Assembly: GCF_027859075.1 (NCBI RefSeq)
Contig: NZ_JAQIBL010000259.1
Span: 1-37,990, forward strand
Length of the DNA: 37,990 bases
Reading direction: 5' to 3'
From: Oceanispirochaeta sp.
Lineage (GTDB): Bacteria; Spirochaetota; Spirochaetia; DSM-2461
Shown here one piece after another: positions 18,637 to 25,714 of this stretch. A model generated the notes under the pieces. That model did not search any database and was not told the origin of the DNA. It saw only the letters and a list, made by a program, of their open reading frames with translations. The first letter of the stretch is position 1; each line of letters opens with the position of its first letter. Both the position numbers and the translations under genes were made by a program.

Positions 18637-18788
18637 CGTGACCCTCCGGCTTCCCTTTGGTTTGACAGATTCATAGAAACTGTTTAGATTATTAACATAC
18701 AGAAAAATTCCGTCCTTATCCATAGATTAAAGAAAGTTCCATGGAATGGTTTCCACATCCGGGAAGTGGATTTTTTTTTGGGGAGTTC

Positions 18789-20165
18789 ATGAGTATCATC
18801 ATCATACTTATTATTGTTTTCGGCACGGCAGTGTCAGTTTTTACTTTTTTTATTGTCAAATCTGTTTTAGCTCCCAAAAAGGTGGCTTCCCTGGCAGATC
18901 TGGTCAAGCAGAATAAGAATACACAAGCCATACGCACGGCCAAACATATCATCAGTAATGAACCCAGGAGCAGTGAGGCTCACTACCTTCTGGCAAAAGC
19001 CCTGGAACAGGACGGAAAGGCCGAACTGGCACTGATGGAAATGAAAACCGTCAGCCATATCAATGAGTTCAAGGGATACTGCAAGGAAAATGAGTTCCGT
19101 CCCCGTATCGCCGCCCTCTATCAGCAATTCAATTTCCCCGATGAGGCCCTCAAGGATTACCTTCTTCTGATCAAGTTGGAACCCTACAATGCAAATTACT
19201 ATTTTCAGGCAGGAGTCCTTTTTGAAAAACGAAAGAAAAACTCTCAGGCCGCCAATTACTATAAAAAGACCATAGATCTGGACCCCCGCAATTCGGAGGC
19301 TCATTTCAATCTGGGAACACTCCTGTACAAGGGCAAAAGATATAACGATGCCAAAATCATCCTGGCCAAGGCACTGAAGCTCAAACCGGATAATTACAAG
19401 GCTCATTTTTACCTGGGCCGCATGTATAAGGAAACCCAGAACTACACCAGCGCTATTCAGTCTTTCGAACAGGCTCAGAAGGACAGTGAATTCAAGATCA
19501 AGGCCCTGATTGAACGGGGAATTTGCTACATTGCCATCCAGAACTATGAGAAGGGGGCTACCGAGCTGGAACGGGCGGTGAAACTATCATTGGAAAAACC
19601 CGATGATTCCACCCTCTTTGCCCGGTACTATCTGGCCATGTGCCATGAAAAAAGAAGGGATATTGATAGAGCCATCGAGCAATGGGAAGCCATTTATAAT
19701 ACAAAGCAGTCTTTTAAGGATGTCGCCGAAAAACTGAGTCAATTCCAGGAGCTCCGTGAAAATGACAGTATGAAAGATTACCTGACCACTTCCAATCAGG
19801 AGTTCCTGAACCTCTGTACCAGATTGATGGAGGTCATGAATCTGAGCATTTCAGACCAGAACCTCACACCCATGGGATGTCAGATCATAGCCACCGAAAA
19901 AACAACGGGTCAATGGCGGAACACCAAAAAGATGCCTCATCTCATCCGTTTTTATAGAATTACCGACAGCATTGATCATCAACAGGTCAGGGAATTCCAT
20001 GAAGAAATTCAGAAACTGAAAGCCTCCAGGGGCATTATGATCACAAGCGCTCTTTTCACCAGGGCAGCCAAGGACTTCACTGAATCCAGACCTATTGAGC
20101 TGATTGAAAAAGGAAAGCTCCAGGAACTGCTGGACCGGGCAGAGAAAGTGATCCTTAAGAAATGA
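18789..20165 (+). CDS. membrane-anchored TPR protein
   Basis: The ATG at 18789 follows GGGGAG (18780-18785) and gives an N-terminal anchor MSIIIILIIVFGTAVSVFTF. An ATG at 18741 is in frame but has no ribosome site and would put a Pro/Gly-rich leader before the anchor. Of the 458 residues, ~45-330 carry TPRs, including near-consensus units (NSEAHFNLGTLLYKGKRYND). The C-terminal ~130 residues form a separate domain that I read as restriction-endonuclease-like/Mrr-like in strand order (GCQIIATEKT...KASRGIMITSALFT), only weakly supported. It diverges from the TPR pair at 15739-18636, and its stop overlaps the next gene's ATG by 4 bases. Confidence 0.75.
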   Translation: MSIIIILIIVFGTAVSVFTFFIVKSVLAPKKVASLADLVKQNKNTQAIRTAKHIISNEPRSSEAHYLLAKALEQDGKAELALMEMKTVSHINEFKGYCKENEFRPRIAALYQQFNFPDEALKDYLLLIKLEPYNANYYFQAGVLFEKRKKNSQAANYYKKTIDLDPRNSEAHFNLGTLLYKGKRYNDAKIILAKALKLKPDNYKAHFYLGRMYKETQNYTSAIQSFEQAQKDSEFKIKALIERGICYIAIQNYEKGATELERAVKLSLEKPDDSTLFARYYLAMCHEKRRDIDRAIEQWEAIYNTKQSFKDVAEKLSQFQELRENDSMKDYLTTSNQEFLNLCTRLMEVMNLSISDQNLTPMGCQIIATEKTTGQWRNTKKMPHLIRFYRITDSIDHQQVREFHEEIQKLKASRGIMITSALFTRAAKDFTESRPIELIEKGKLQELLDRAEKVILKK

Positions 20166-20860
20166 AAATACTCATTGTTGCTGACAATAAGGACCCCCTG
20201 GTCTACTCTCCCAATATAAAAAAACGCTTCGGCGATGTAGAAGTGATTCTGGGAGCAGGAGATCTGCCCATGGAATACTATGGATTCATTGTCAGCAGCC
20301 TGAACCGGCCCCTTTATTTTATCTTCGGAAATCATGACCTAAAGCACTATCAGGTGTTTAAAAAAGGAGAGCGTGCCATTCAAGTAGGGGGAGCAGGTGA
20401 CGACCCCACGTCTCTGCAGAACCTGTATAAAAACAGCTTTGGAGCCACCTATATTGGTGATAAAGTCGTCCGCCTTAAATCCAAGAAACTATTGATTGCC
20501 GGACTGGGAGGAAGCCTCCGTTACAACAAGGGAGTGAATCAATACACTGAGTTTCAAATGCGTTTGAAGATGCTGAAAATGGTCCCCCGCCTGTTGTGGA
20601 ACAAATGGCGCCATGGCCGATATCTTGATATTCTCCTCACCCATGCCGCTCCCAGAGGAATCCATGACAAGGAAGATCCCTGCCATCTGGGGTTTAAAAG
20701 TTTCTTATGGTTTATGGATAAGTATAAACCCCGTTACCTGCTTCATGGACATATACATCTCTATTCACTCAATGATAAGAGGGTTACCCAATACAAAGAA
20801 ACGACAGTGATAAACACATACGACCACTATTTATTGGATTATGAGGAAAATAATGGATAA
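20162..20860 (+). CDS. calcineurin-like metallophosphoesterase
   Basis: A 232-residue protein with most of the two-metal signature: GAGD (31-34), GNHD (56-59), LLTHAAP (H161) and HGHIH (195-199). The first motif, normally DxH, reads D8-N-K10, so the His metal ligand of motif I is replaced by Lys; D11 or another side chain could compensate. Substrate unknown; family members act on nucleotides, cyclic nucleotides, UDP-lipids or proteins. It is coupled to the upstream TPR gene (ATGA) and overlaps the downstream gene by 8 bases, forming a three-gene unit. Confidence 0.8.
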   Translation: MKILIVADNKDPLVYSPNIKKRFGDVEVILGAGDLPMEYYGFIVSSLNRPLYFIFGNHDLKHYQVFKKGERAIQVGGAGDDPTSLQNLYKNSFGATYIGDKVVRLKSKKLLIAGLGGSLRYNKGVNQYTEFQMRLKMLKMVPRLLWNKWRHGRYLDILLTHAAPRGIHDKEDPCHLGFKSFLWFMDKYKPRYLLHGHIHLYSLNDKRVTQYKETTVINTYDHYLLDYEENNG

Positions 20861-21767
20861 ACATATGATGAATTCCCAGGCTTCCTCGGACTTCAACAAG
20901 GCTAAGAGCAAAGCCATTTTCAATACAGTCATGAATATTCTCCGGCCTGAAAGAAGACAGCTTTTGTCTTTTTATGATGTTAAATCTCTGATCAAAACAA
21001 GTTCGGAAAGCTATAAAGGGATGCAGGCTGTCAAGATTGAGGATATTGCCGGCAGTGAAGGCCGATACAGTGACTTTAACAAAGCCTTTCTTCCTAAAAA
21101 AGAACATCTGAGGAAACGCTGGGAGAGCATCGACAAAGCCTATATGGGGGATGTAAACCTGCCGTCCATCATGCTCTATAAGATTGGGAGCATCTATTTT
21201 GTCCGTGACGGGAATCACAGGGTCTCTGTTGCCAAGGCACAGGGCATGTTTTCCATCGATGCAGAAGTGACTGAGCTGACAACCGAGGTAAAATTGAATT
21301 CGACCATGGATATGATGGATCTGAAACAATCGGTCATAGACTATGAACGGAACCTGATACTGAAACAGACCGATCTGGACGGAATTATCGAAGAAGGGAA
21401 TATCTTTTTCACTGCCCCGGGCCGGTATGAAGAGATGCTGCAGCATATAGTGGGACATAAATATTATATCAACATGGATCAGGAGGAGGAGATCCTTCTG
21501 TCTGTTGCCGCCCGGTCCTGGTATGAAAACCTCTACCTACCCATTGTGAAGGTGATCAGGGATGCCAGTCTCCTCTCACACTTTCCGGGACGGACAGAAG
21601 CGGATCTGTACATCTGGATAGTGAAACAGTGGCACTATCTGAAGGAAAAATACGGTCCCGAATATCCCCTGGAGGCAGCGGCGGCTAAATATACACAGGA
21701 ATTCGGTTACAGCTTCTTTAAGAATCCTCTGAAGTGGCTGAAACAGAAGCTTGATCCTGAAGAGTAG
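20853..21767 (+). CDS. ParB/Srx-fold-like protein of unknown function
   Basis: 304 residues from an ATG at 20853 preceded by GAGGAAA; a start at 20841 also exists. The recognisable motif is FVRDGNHRVSVAKAQG (DGNHR at ~119-123), the ParB/sulfiredoxin nucleotide-binding motif, with a preceding PSIMLYKIGSIYFV strand. The rest, ~180 to the end, is helical with conserved-looking Trp/Tyr (WYENLYLPIVKVIR) and does not look like the DNA-binding HTH of true ParB. This arrangement recalls DUF4032-type proteins, a tentative match. Its end overlaps the opposite-strand lipoprotein gene by 50 bases. Confidence 0.65.
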   Translation: MDKHMMNSQASSDFNKAKSKAIFNTVMNILRPERRQLLSFYDVKSLIKTSSESYKGMQAVKIEDIAGSEGRYSDFNKAFLPKKEHLRKRWESIDKAYMGDVNLPSIMLYKIGSIYFVRDGNHRVSVAKAQGMFSIDAEVTELTTEVKLNSTMDMMDLKQSVIDYERNLILKQTDLDGIIEEGNIFFTAPGRYEEMLQHIVGHKYYINMDQEEEILLSVAARSWYENLYLPIVKVIRDASLLSHFPGRTEADLYIWIVKQWHYLKEKYGPEYPLEAAAAKYTQEFGYSFFKNPLKWLKQKLDPEE

Positions 21768-22458
21768 TATCCTCCAGGAGCGGTTCAGCCTCCCGGATCA
21801 GATAAGGACCGGATTTCAGGCCGAATCCTCTCTCCTCATCCTGAAAATAAATCATAAACCAGCTGACAATCTGTTCCTCTTCGGCTTCCAGTAGTTCAGT
21901 CCTGGAGTAGAACCCCCCGGACCTGTATTTTTCTGAGACCAGTTCACCTCTCTCATTGTAAAACCAGAGAACCACAGGGTCATGGCCAGCCGCATCAATC
22001 CGTATAAAATTACCCTGAACCTGAGCCCTTGGAAATTCATAAACCCCGGGAGCGACTCCCGGATCATCGACCCGAAAGAGATGCTCTTCCCTCTGGCCGC
22101 TCCGGTCAATGACTAACAACCGGTAGTCTCCCCCCGGAAGCGGACCTCCCAGGGTCATACCATTGGCTCCGATCCAGGTTTCTCCGTCCTCTGTAAGGCT
22201 GACCCAGCTGTCAGGAGTCAGTTCCCAGGCCCAACCCTGATCATCCCGGCGGATAGAGATCTCACTGATATCCTCCACACCGTCTTCATCTTCCATCTGG
22301 GCAAAAAAATCCATTTCTGTATAGATTCCACCCCGGCCCTGATCGTAGGTATAGACAATCATCCACTCAGTGTTGAGGATTTTGGGAGGGCTGCCTGAGC
22401 AGGAGAGGAAAAGAAAAGAACTAACTGCCACCCATGCTGTCATTGCTGTGAATTTCAA
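21718..22458 (-). CDS. putative lipoprotein of unknown function
   Basis: A 246-residue protein starting at a TTG (22458) that overlaps the SelB-like gene's TGA (TTGA). The N-terminus, MKFTAMTAWVAVSSFLFLSC, is a lipoprotein signal peptide with lipobox LFLSC. The mature domain has a beta-rich look (GDYRLLVIDRSGQREEHLF, WFYNERGELVSEKY) resembling an Ig-like or sandwich fold. An internal ATG (22443) would remove the only Lys of the n-region, so TTG is preferred. Its last 50 bases run antisense to the end of the ParB-like gene. Confidence 0.65.
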   Translation of the reverse strand: MKFTAMTAWVAVSSFLFLSCSGSPPKILNTEWMIVYTYDQGRGGIYTEMDFFAQMEDEDGVEDISEISIRRDDQGWAWELTPDSWVSLTEDGETWIGANGMTLGGPLPGGDYRLLVIDRSGQREEHLFRVDDPGVAPGVYEFPRAQVQGNFIRIDAAGHDPVVLWFYNERGELVSEKYRSGGFYSRTELLEAEEEQIVSWFMIYFQDEERGFGLKSGPYLIREAEPLLEDTTLQDQASVSATSEDS

Positions 22459-23684
22459 GTTTCCCGACTCTCCGTCACCGCCTCGACAACGGTTCGTTTA
22501 TGATCTTCCGTGGTGAGAACCTTTCCATCTTCTTCAAGGACAGAGAGGACCAGGAGAAGACGGCTCCGGCTCAGATCCAGGAGGCCTTTCAGATCGGAAA
22601 GCTCGAAGGAAGTCCCCCGGGGAAGCAGTGTCAGGAAAGAATCAACCAGGCTCTGGAAGGCCTGTTGTTCTACGGCAAAGGTTTCAAAAACGCGGATAAG
22701 GCCCCGCTTTTCCATGGCATCCAGACGGCGGCCCAGTTTAAAGGTCTCTTTTAAAGGAATGCCTTCGGCTCCCGCCGCTTGCAGATTTTCGAGCCACATC
22801 CGGCTCATGGGGGACAGAAAGGCTCGATGATCATCGCACTGATTAAAAAGAGTTCCCCGGATTCTGATGATTTTATCCTCTCTGATGAGGAGATCACAGA
22901 TTTCCCGGCAGAGCCTCAGGGGAAGGCCCAGCAGGTCGGGCAATTCATCTTCGGCGATACCCTCTTCCGCCCTGCATCGTTTTTCCACAGTGGCAAGGGC
23001 TTTATCATAAACCCGGGACATCAAAACCCAGCCCCCCAGTTTGACAGAACCTTCAAACTTTTTCTCCATTAAATGGGGGGGAAGAACGATGGCACCCCGG
23101 ACACGGAGGTTCATCGAATAGACGGCATCCTCACCGGGAAAATTACTGATTTTATTCATACGGGCTTTCATATTTTTAAGCTCTTCCGTCGTCCAGGGTT
23201 CAGCCATCAGCAGAAGACACTCGCCCGACTGGCTGCCCTGACTGAGAGTATAAATCTGCCCGGGGATTTGCAGAAAGGGAATGCGGGAGCTCAGGATGAC
23301 GGTCTTGCTCCCTTCACTGCAGCTGACGGAATCCCGGCTTTTCAGGCCGGGAGTATCCCGAAGATGAAGAGAGAGGGAATCTCCGGCGGTGATTTTTTTC
23401 TTCCAGATGACCAGGGCTTTGCGGCCTTCCGAAGCACCCGTATCTTCGGAAATCAACTGATCGCCCCTGTTCAGCCTGGAACGGGAGAGACCTTTCAGCT
23501 CCAGAATCACATCTTTCCCTCCGGGAATAGAATGAACCTGTTTAAGACGAACCGTCTGCTTTCCGGGAAATAGGAGAAACCGCCCCGATTCGGGGGGATT
23601 GCCGATGACTGAGGCCTGAAGCGAGACCCCTTTTCCTTCTGTTTGAGGAGGGCTCAGAACCGTATAATGACTAATTTGTGACAA
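22455..23684 (-). CDS. SelB-like protein lacking the GTPase domain
   Basis: A 409-residue protein starting at TTG 23684 with GGAG 7 bases upstream. Residues ~17-80 match the EF-Tu/SelB domain II pattern (GRFLLFPGKQTVRLKQVHS then LELKGLSRSRLNRGDQL); ~88-165 match domain III (KKKITAGDSLSLHLRDTPG). From ~200 on there are winged-helix repeats, the last (~345-400; FELSDLKGLLDLSRSRLLLV, then LEEDGKV) strongly resembling the final SelB wing, which binds the SECIS hairpin (LGxxRKxAxxxLEYxDxxG in SelB). No G1-G4 GTPase motifs are present, and the 134 bases to the next upstream feature cannot hold the missing ~170 residues. It is either a remnant or a paralogue with a changed role. The lipoprotein gene follows with an overlap. 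Confidence 0.6.
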   Translation of the reverse strand: MSQISHYTVLSPPQTEGKGVSLQASVIGNPPESGRFLLFPGKQTVRLKQVHSIPGGKDVILELKGLSRSRLNRGDQLISEDTGASEGRKALVIWKKKITAGDSLSLHLRDTPGLKSRDSVSCSEGSKTVILSSRIPFLQIPGQIYTLSQGSQSGECLLLMAEPWTTEELKNMKARMNKISNFPGEDAVYSMNLRVRGAIVLPPHLMEKKFEGSVKLGGWVLMSRVYDKALATVEKRCRAEEGIAEDELPDLLGLPLRLCREICDLLIREDKIIRIRGTLFNQCDDHRAFLSPMSRMWLENLQAAGAEGIPLKETFKLGRRLDAMEKRGLIRVFETFAVEQQAFQSLVDSFLTLLPRGTSFELSDLKGLLDLSRSRLLLVLSVLEEDGKVLTTEDHKRTVVEAVTESRET

Positions 23685-23728
23685 TGAAAGTCTCCAGGTG
23701 AGTATTTTTTTCTCTTTTTATACCGGAA

Positions 23729-23747: not shown

Positions 23748-23848
23748 GGTCAGGCTATAATGAAGCCCTTGAAAAACTGATCCGGTAAGATCAATCATAT
23801 CATAACCTGCCGGGATTCGTGAATACAGGAATTGCACCAGAAGGAATT

Positions 23849-25714
23849 ATGACACTCCGGGAAAAAGCAGACAATCTGAACATCAGTCCCCATACACTGA
23901 GAAACTGGCAGAAAAGAAAGGAAGCCAGCGATACGGCTTCCAGAAATCTTGTCAGTCGGGCCAACAAACTCAACTCTTTCCGATTGACCCTGGCTGTGGA
24001 ACTCCTTCATAAGAAGGAGAACAAAGGAGCCCTTCAGGATATACGGGATATCCTCCTCTCACAGCCCCTCCAGATGGAGGGGCGGATACTTCTCTTTGCC
24101 CTTTACTATCTGAATTCCAAAAAGCTCCTCAGTTTCCCAACAAAACCATCATCCCGGGACTGCCTGGCAATGAGAATCAACCAGGCGGTCTGCGCCCCGG
24201 TGATGCAAAAAGAACTAACCATGCGGCTGAACCAGCTGTCAGAGAACGAGCAGAGGAGTCCCTTATCCCTGCCGGAATCATTCTCCCGCTGCTTCCATAA
24301 GAACCTGCTCAAAGAGACTGACCTCCCCGGACTGATATACCAAAGCATTCAGAATGAGGGTGCAAGATCCCGCCGGGGAGCCTGGTTTACCCCTGTGAAC
24401 ATCATCGATTCCATGATCAACCCCTATAAGAACCGGAAAAAAGGACTCTTTGATCCCTGCTGCGGGTCGGGACTCTTCCTCTGCCGTTTTGCAGAGATGA
24501 AGGGCAGCGCAGACTGTGTACGAGGCATGGACATGGACCCCCTCTCTGTCTTTCTGACCCGATTGAACCTGTTCACACGATTCCCTCTCTGGACCGCTTT
24601 TCAGAACATCCAGGAGGGTGACAGCCTGAAGGTTTCCAGCTGGTTCCTGGGAGCCCATGATCTTGTCGCCACGAATCCCCCCTGGGGGGCTCATATGGGA
24701 GAGGCCGATAAAAAAGAAATGCTTTTCCGCTATCCCGAAATACAATCAGGAGAATCGGCGTCCCTGTTCCTCAGACGCTGCAGCGATGAGCTTCCTCCCG
24801 GCGGAACAGCCTCCTTCCTGCTGCCGGAATCCCTGTTTTATGTAGAGATTCACAAAGACATCAGAACCTGGCTTTTAGAGAAGGCTCCTCCAGTGAAGAT
24901 CACCGACAGAGGAAAGTTGTTCAAGGGTGTGTATTCGGCGGTGGTCTCCTGCGATTTCAGCAAAGATAGCTCTCACAGGAAAGTGAGAGTCATTTCTGCC
25001 GGAGTAGAGACGAAAGGACGGGAGGGGGAAAAACAGCTCCTGAGCCGATACAAAAAAAACACATTAAAAATTATCAATTTTCAAAGCTCCCGGGAGGCCC
25101 AGGCCCTCATCCATAAAATCAAAAATGGACGAACCAGATCCCTCCCGGAGGACTGTCTCTGGCTTCTGGGTGTTGTCACGGGAGACAATGCACGTTTTAT
25201 TTCTGAAACGCCTCAGGGGGGGGCCATCCCCCTCCTCACGGGAAAAGAACTGGCCCCCTTCGGGCATAAACCTGTCTGCCGTTACCTGAAAACTGACGAT
25301 GGTCCCTATCAGCAGAACCGTCCCCTGGAAGAGTACGGCCGCCCCAAACTGGCCTACCGGTTCATCGGCTATAAACCGGTCTTCTCCCTGGACAGAGAGG
25401 GACTGATCACCCTGAACTCAGCCAATGGACTGATTCCTCCCCGGGAGGAGGACCTGGAGGAACTGGCCTTCTGGTATAACTCTTCCCTCTTTCGCTTCTT
25501 ATGGTTCAACCAGTACCGCTCGGTGAAGATGCTCCGGCATCATCTGGAACAGCTCCCCCTCCCCCAATGGAAAAAAATAGAGATAGAAGGAGTCCGGAAG
25601 CTTGTCAAAGAGGCGGAAAACCGGCAAGATGTCCAGTCTCTAATGGATGAAATGATTTTCAGGCATTTTAAACTTACCAACGAGGAAATAAAGATTGTCT
25701 TCAGTCAAATCTGA
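23849..25714 (+). CDS. TaqI/Eco57I-type N6-adenine DNA methyltransferase, apparently solitary
   Basis: The ATG at 23849 follows AAGGA; a GTG at 23819 has no ribosome site. From that ATG the protein is 621 residues. It opens with an HTH-like segment (MTLREKADNLNISPHTLRNW, MerR-like in style), then a helical region, motif X GAWFTP (~177), motif I FDPCCGSGLFL (~201-211), acidic GMDMDP, and motif IV NPPWG (~276-280), the NPPY class that methylates adenine. The C-terminal ~230 residues look like a TaqI-type specificity domain, ending with the family's typical helices (KLVKEAENRQDVQSLMDEMI). No PD-(D/E)xK nuclease is seen in the protein or next door. A run of eight G (25216-25223) lies in the reading frame. 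The end overlaps pth by 20 bases. Confidence 0.85.
   Translation: MTLREKADNLNISPHTLRNWQKRKEASDTASRNLVSRANKLNSFRLTLAVELLHKKENKGALQDIRDILLSQPLQMEGRILLFALYYLNSKKLLSFPTKPSSRDCLAMRINQAVCAPVMQKELTMRLNQLSENEQRSPLSLPESFSRCFHKNLLKETDLPGLIYQSIQNEGARSRRGAWFTPVNIIDSMINPYKNRKKGLFDPCCGSGLFLCRFAEMKGSADCVRGMDMDPLSVFLTRLNLFTRFPLWTAFQNIQEGDSLKVSSWFLGAHDLVATNPPWGAHMGEADKKEMLFRYPEIQSGESASLFLRRCSDELPPGGTASFLLPESLFYVEIHKDIRTWLLEKAPPVKITDRGKLFKGVYSAVVSCDFSKDSSHRKVRVISAGVETKGREGEKQLLSRYKKNTLKIINFQSSREAQALIHKIKNGRTRSLPEDCLWLLGVVTGDNARFISETPQGGAIPLLTGKELAPFGHKPVCRYLKTDDGPYQQNRPLEEYGRPKLAYRFIGYKPVFSLDREGLITLNSANGLIPPREEDLEELAFWYNSSLFRFLWFNQYRSVKMLRHHLEQLPLPQWKKIEIEGVRKLVKEAENRQDVQSLMDEMIFRHFKLTNEEIKIVFSQI

Follow-up and report, generated by a model that had tools for sequence, protein, structure and literature searches.

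A conserved SelB-related protein family without a G domain in the class Spirochaetia, with a putative GTP-independent role at the ribosome

We examined a gene on a contig of Oceanispirochaeta sp. (NZ_JAQIBL010000259.1) whose 37,990 nucleotides, the whole stretch of DNA analyzed, are referred to here as the window. The gene (22455..23684, minus strand) encodes a SelB-like protein without a G domain, here named SelB-deltaG. Inspection of the open reading frame places a TTG start codon at 23684 and a TGA stop codon at 22455, giving a protein of 409 aa, and a Shine-Dalgarno sequence (GGAG; 23692..23695, minus strand) that is recognizable in five of six congeners lies 7 nt 5' of the start. The divergent gene at 23819-25714 (plus strand) encodes a solitary N6-adenine DNA methyltransferase with a TaqI-type C-terminal domain. 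Only 134 bp separate it from SelB-deltaG, and therefore there is no space for a missed G domain 5' of SelB-deltaG, in agreement with what the first-pass annotation had claimed. Three genera of the family retain the methyltransferase at this position (30-60% identity), with no obvious nuclease partner adjoining it.

Downstream lies a lipoprotein gene (21718..22458, minus strand; lipobox LFLSC) whose TTG start overlaps the TGA stop of the SelB-deltaG gene. A single-sequence structure prediction of the lipoprotein was too poor for use (pLDDT 41.9). The lipoprotein gene is in turn followed by a convergent DUF4032-like gene (20841..21767, plus strand; Pfam match just under the cut-off), which neighbors it across the Spirochaetia and which we used as the anchor for a locus scan of genome contigs. 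The DUF4032-like protein carries a ParB-like DGNHRVSVA motif and is highly conserved across the Spirochaetia, Treponema included. One record that it matched, DYOB01000043.1 (L122), is titled Borreliella garinii and bears a sulfur-cave-like isolate name; because its DUF4032-like match groups with free-living Spirochaetales, the record is probably misnamed. Further along, the product of the gene at 18741-20165 (plus strand) combines TPR repeats with a membrane-like segment at its N terminus and a domain of the restriction-endonuclease-like type Mrr_cat (Pfam E=5e-11).

When searched singly, the SelB-deltaG sequence matched nothing in Pfam, NCBIfam or the PDB (the sole NCBIfam line, at E=0.18, is noise). 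It did not reach the cut-off of the curated SelB family, had no NCBIfam match to SelB, and is covered by no family model in either Pfam or NCBIfam. SelB was matched only by family profiles. A profile of 21 members, all from the taxonomic family of the window's genome (profile A1), matched the winged-helix part of Moorella SelB in the PDB (1lva, 2ply and 1wsu; E=6e-9 to 1.8e-8) and, at E=0.007, the EF-Sec structure 4zu9. Among 393 genomes of the phylum, the proteins best matched by this profile, apart from the G-less form itself, were SelBs of full length (about 570-650 aa; lowest E=1.9e-36), and the family profile reached E-values down to 4e-43 against full-length spirochete SelBs. With matches at 6e-9 in the PDB and to 4e-43 among the SelBs, the likeness is therefore beyond chance. 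The AlphaFold model of SelB-deltaG, with a mean pLDDT of 88.9, points the same way: the best Foldseek matches in the PDB were full-length SelB structures, namely ribosome-bound E. coli SelB (5lzb_z, 3.7e-15) and bacterial EF-Sec (4zu9, 5.7e-15), followed by EF-Tu proteins that align with its two barrels. Almost certainly, SelB-deltaG belongs to a conserved family of common ancestry with SelB in which the G domain is missing.

The protein starts directly with an EF-Tu-type barrel, domain II (residues 1-85; 23430..23684, minus strand), delimited by the strands of the AlphaFold model and by alignment to SelB and to the EF-Tu of the same genome. A second barrel, domain III (residues 86-165; 23190..23429, minus strand), is defined by the model and alignment; both boundaries are approximate. 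Four winged-helix domains, WH1-WH4, occupy residues 166-400 (22485..23189, minus strand), with approximate limits at 166-222, 223-285, 286-345 and 346-400. The presence of the two barrels is supported by the AlphaFold model, the Foldseek matches to 5lzb_z and 4zu9 and the alignment, and that of the winged helices by the profile match to 1lva/2uwm (E=6e-9), the model and Foldseek. A joint alignment with 18 spirochete SelBs spans domain II, domain III and WH1-WH4, and no G1-G4 motif was found by alignment in the SelB-deltaG reading frame or in 37 relatives, which span seven families. The domain order and the missing G motifs, both of which had been proposed from the letters of the sequence, are thus confirmed by profile, model, structural comparison and alignment. 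So is the more general proposal of a SelB paralog without a G domain that could act, at most, in a GTP-free manner.

Residues that line the aminoacyl pocket of SelB have been lost as well. Among them, an Asp present in 100% of spirochete SelBs is found in 7% of SelB-deltaG members, an Arg falls from 100% to 0 and a second Arg from 100% to 10%. From their spacing, and from the corresponding residues of M. maripaludis (PMC3037878), we take these positions to be D180, R181 and R236 of E. coli SelB. Their role in the pocket is known from the same paper. Judged by the alignment, the aminoacyl (Sec) pocket is gone. With neither a GTP site nor an aminoacyl pocket, SelB-deltaG therefore cannot act as an elongation factor.

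The last winged helix had been described as closely resembling the SECIS-binding wing of SelB, but this is true only of its fold and of one key arginine. R373 (22566..22568, minus strand), where the recognition helix of WH4 begins, is equivalent to SelB Arg606 (M. thermoacetica numbering, by alignment to 1lva) and is basic in 95% of members. However, the neighboring Lys (Lys607), present in 94% of SelBs, occurs in only 7% of members, and of the two wing arginines, both found in 100% of SelBs, one remains in 43% and the other in 30% of members. The net charge of the recognition helix and wing falls from +3.8 in SelB to 0.0 in SelB-deltaG. In one clade (f63; L208, L209 and L210) the proteins end right after the WH4 recognition helix and the wing is absent. 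Binding of a SECIS-like hairpin in the manner of SelB, also suggested in the first-pass annotation, is therefore unlikely.

The residues that have been retained lie elsewhere. Only three columns are basic in all 37 members, K18 (23631..23633), K48 (23541..23543) and K64 (23490..23495 together with the invariant G65), all on the minus strand and all in domain II. K48 is basic in SelB too. In EF-Tu from the same genome, the positions aligned with K18 and K64 are arginines, of the GRG and the LRG loop respectively; SelB is variable there, and the alignment is of low identity with gaps near K18. These are presumably the loops by which EF-Tu docks on the 30S shoulder. Domain 2 of EF-Tu touches the 30S shoulder, and the arrangement is very similar for SelB (PMC5311926).

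SelB-deltaG is widely conserved, as the first-pass annotation had thought worth looking for. It was found in 25 of 26 genomes of its own taxonomic family, nearly always in a single uninterrupted reading frame (about 400-435 aa); in three draft genomes it is in pieces, and one carrier has only a fragment. A wider profile of the family (A3) detected the same G-less form in six class families (f6, f62, f63, f66, f69 and f78), bringing the total to at least seven families of the class Spirochaetia, and in the phylum-wide sample of 393 genomes it is confined to this class. The form is thus not restricted to a single genome beside a frameshifted G domain. Members from different genera share only 20-25% identity. 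In four closely related pairs dN/dS was 0.08-0.20 (dS was saturated in two more distant pairs), and the sequences are under purifying selection. An unrooted tree with long branches, built from 37 sequences of the G-less form and 19 full SelBs, separates the two groups with support of 100/99, making a single origin of the G-less form likely. One genome, G434, a draft with 4% contamination, carries both types, with a full SelB encoded next to selA on contig C4 and the G-less form located on contig C13; their co-occurrence favors an old paralog rather than a recent truncation. A mobile origin was also considered and set aside, as tblastn searches of plasmid and phage records gave no match to SelB-deltaG.

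We also looked for the selenocysteine machinery in the genomes that carry SelB-deltaG. The genome of the window has no SelA, no SelB above the cut-off (matches of the SelB search end at EF-Tu, with 192.8 bits against a cut-off of 242.25) and no tRNA-Sec above the gathering score. Its best tRNA-Sec match, at 45 bits, falls short of the gathering score of 47; matches at this low level also occur in control genomes that lack Sec, whereas the true tRNA-Sec of five SelB-containing control spirochetes scored 58.7-71.4 bits. Among carriers of the G-less form the maximum was 48.7 bits, within the range of ordinary tRNAs in this search. SelA exceeded its cut-off in all five controls, but G434 was the sole case among about 40 carriers, and profile searches found no full SelB in the carriers tested other than G434. 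In another carrier (G023), 85 residues at the end of a contig give a partial, SelA-like match. The TIGR00475 model under-calls some spirochete SelBs: G270 (L081) has a genuine SelB adjoining selA and tRNA-Sec, yet this protein falls below the TIGR00475 cut-off and was not reported at E<=1e-70. Therefore, the absence of SelB from the carriers rests on the A1 and A3 profiles, selA and tRNA-Sec taken together. SelB-deltaG seems to occur, with very few exceptions, in bacteria that have given up selenocysteine, and to be an old translation factor with a new job.

The translational coupling to the lipoprotein gene noted in the first-pass annotation is real and widespread, but it is not universal. 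SelB-deltaG is usually the first gene of the pair, with overlapping stop and start codons in most lineages. In three f6 genomes, however, it has no lipoprotein neighbor, and its function is therefore not strictly dependent on the lipoprotein, which is a usual rather than an obligatory partner. An autoregulatory SECIS-like hairpin near the start or the gene junction was considered as well and rejected, since no covarying structure was present at either site in six congeners.

Like bacterial SelB (TIGR00475; 5lzb, 4zu9, 1lva/2uwm), SelB-deltaG carries domain II, domain III and four winged helices arranged in this order, by both sequence and fold, but it lacks the G domain and the aminoacyl pocket, seems to have lost most of the RNA-binding surface of WH4 and occurs for the most part where the genome has neither selA nor tRNA-Sec. 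The nearest described case is archaeal aSelBL (PDB 2ELF), which has no C-terminal domain but keeps the aminoacyl pocket and a degenerate form of the G domain (Atkinson 2011, PMC3037878). It too is a SelB-derived paralog whose GTPase activity is unlikely or lost and that occurs beyond selenocysteine users. SelB-deltaG is nevertheless its near mirror image, having lost the G domain and pocket and retained the C-terminal winged helices. In the translation-GTPase literature that we searched, SelB-derived proteins retain at least a degenerate G domain, and a search of the open-access literature turned up no publication that describes a SelB of the G-less kind. Tsr1 is an inactive structural mimic of translational GTPases (PMC4895721), and it offers a precedent for a relative of these enzymes acting on the small subunit without GTP-binding residues; however, it is a eukaryotic ribosome biogenesis factor and retains an inactive G-like domain, of which SelB-deltaG has none. 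A family that has no G domain and whose remaining body is under selection raises the question of what the non-GTPase part does on its own, and it is open to testing because many carriers hold a single intact copy. The distribution suggests an evolutionary route in which spirochetes lose selenocysteine and a SelB paralog survives in a new role.

The residues lost and retained are consistent with a protein that binds the small subunit or rRNA independently of GTP and re-uses its winged-helix arm. We propose that SelB-deltaG is a putative GTP-independent binder of the ribosome (30S) or rRNA, and give this reading a probability of about 0.35-0.4. The invariant basic K18 and K64-G65 would anchor domain II to the 30S shoulder, at the site used by the domain II of EF-Tu and SelB. 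As in SelB, the winged-helix arm would point to the side where mRNA enters, but its specificity would differ. The protein would deliver no tRNA and might instead occupy the ribosome constitutively or modulate it, for instance to damp translation or to protect subunits. A narrower version, which we regard as somewhat more doubtful, is that the SelB body has been re-used as a Spirochaetia-specific, GTP-free regulator or hibernation-like factor bound to the ribosome, the GTPase engine and the tRNA site having been discarded. Several points count against a role at the ribosome. K18 and K64 could serve another ligand or the fold, the tight linkage with an exported lipoprotein is left unexplained, and fast divergence is unusual for a binder of conserved rRNA.

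Fast divergence and the frequent linkage to an envelope lipoprotein would be accommodated if SelB-deltaG were a protein-protein scaffold, co-opted outside translation and nucleic acids to work with the lipoprotein and the envelope genes of the locus, and so would the degradation of all three SelB active sites (GTP, aminoacyl pocket and SECIS surface). We consider this unlikely. The three invariably basic positions of domain II point to a nucleic-acid ligand, SelB-deltaG itself has no signal peptide while the lipoprotein is an exported protein, and the f6 members keep SelB-deltaG without the lipoprotein. A slightly less probable alternative is a post-transcriptional or transcriptional regulator, in which the winged helices would bind an RNA hairpin (for example, in the coupled lipoprotein transcript) or DNA and the barrels would serve as a scaffold. 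Retention of WH1-4 and of a basic residue at R373, together with the stop/start overlap in most lineages, speaks for such a regulator, but the neutral WH4 surface with its missing Lys and wing arginines, the absent wing in f63, the lack of a covarying hairpin in the six congeners and the members without a lipoprotein neighbor do not.

A competitor or regulator of selenocysteine insertion, the role first suggested for this protein, now appears very improbable despite the SelB-derived winged helices and the presence of SelB-deltaG alongside full SelA and SelB in G434: about 39 of 40 carriers, the genome of the window among them, have no SelA over the cut-off, and those tested have neither a full SelB nor a tRNA-Sec score in the true range. 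A decaying SelB remnant or a frameshift or assembly artefact might be expected where the Sec machinery is missing, but intact reading frames in seven families, a single clade, the low dN/dS and the conserved start and synteny leave it next to no probability, and we rule out an origin as a pseudogene or by frameshift on the grounds of conservation and dN/dS. Equally improbable is a split SelB, with SelB-deltaG as one part and the G domain encoded at another site in the genome, as the SelB profile found only EF-Tu and other full-size translation-type GTPases, and no free-standing SelB G domain, in the 96% complete draft genome of the window, which also has no SelA or tRNA-Sec.

Finally, two loci of family f79 (L217:2389-2865, minus strand, and L218:2014-2442, plus strand) contain an open reading frame of 142-158 aa that resembles only WH3-WH4 of SelB-deltaG, either an even more reduced form or a remnant; in L217 it is located upstream of the lipoprotein gene.
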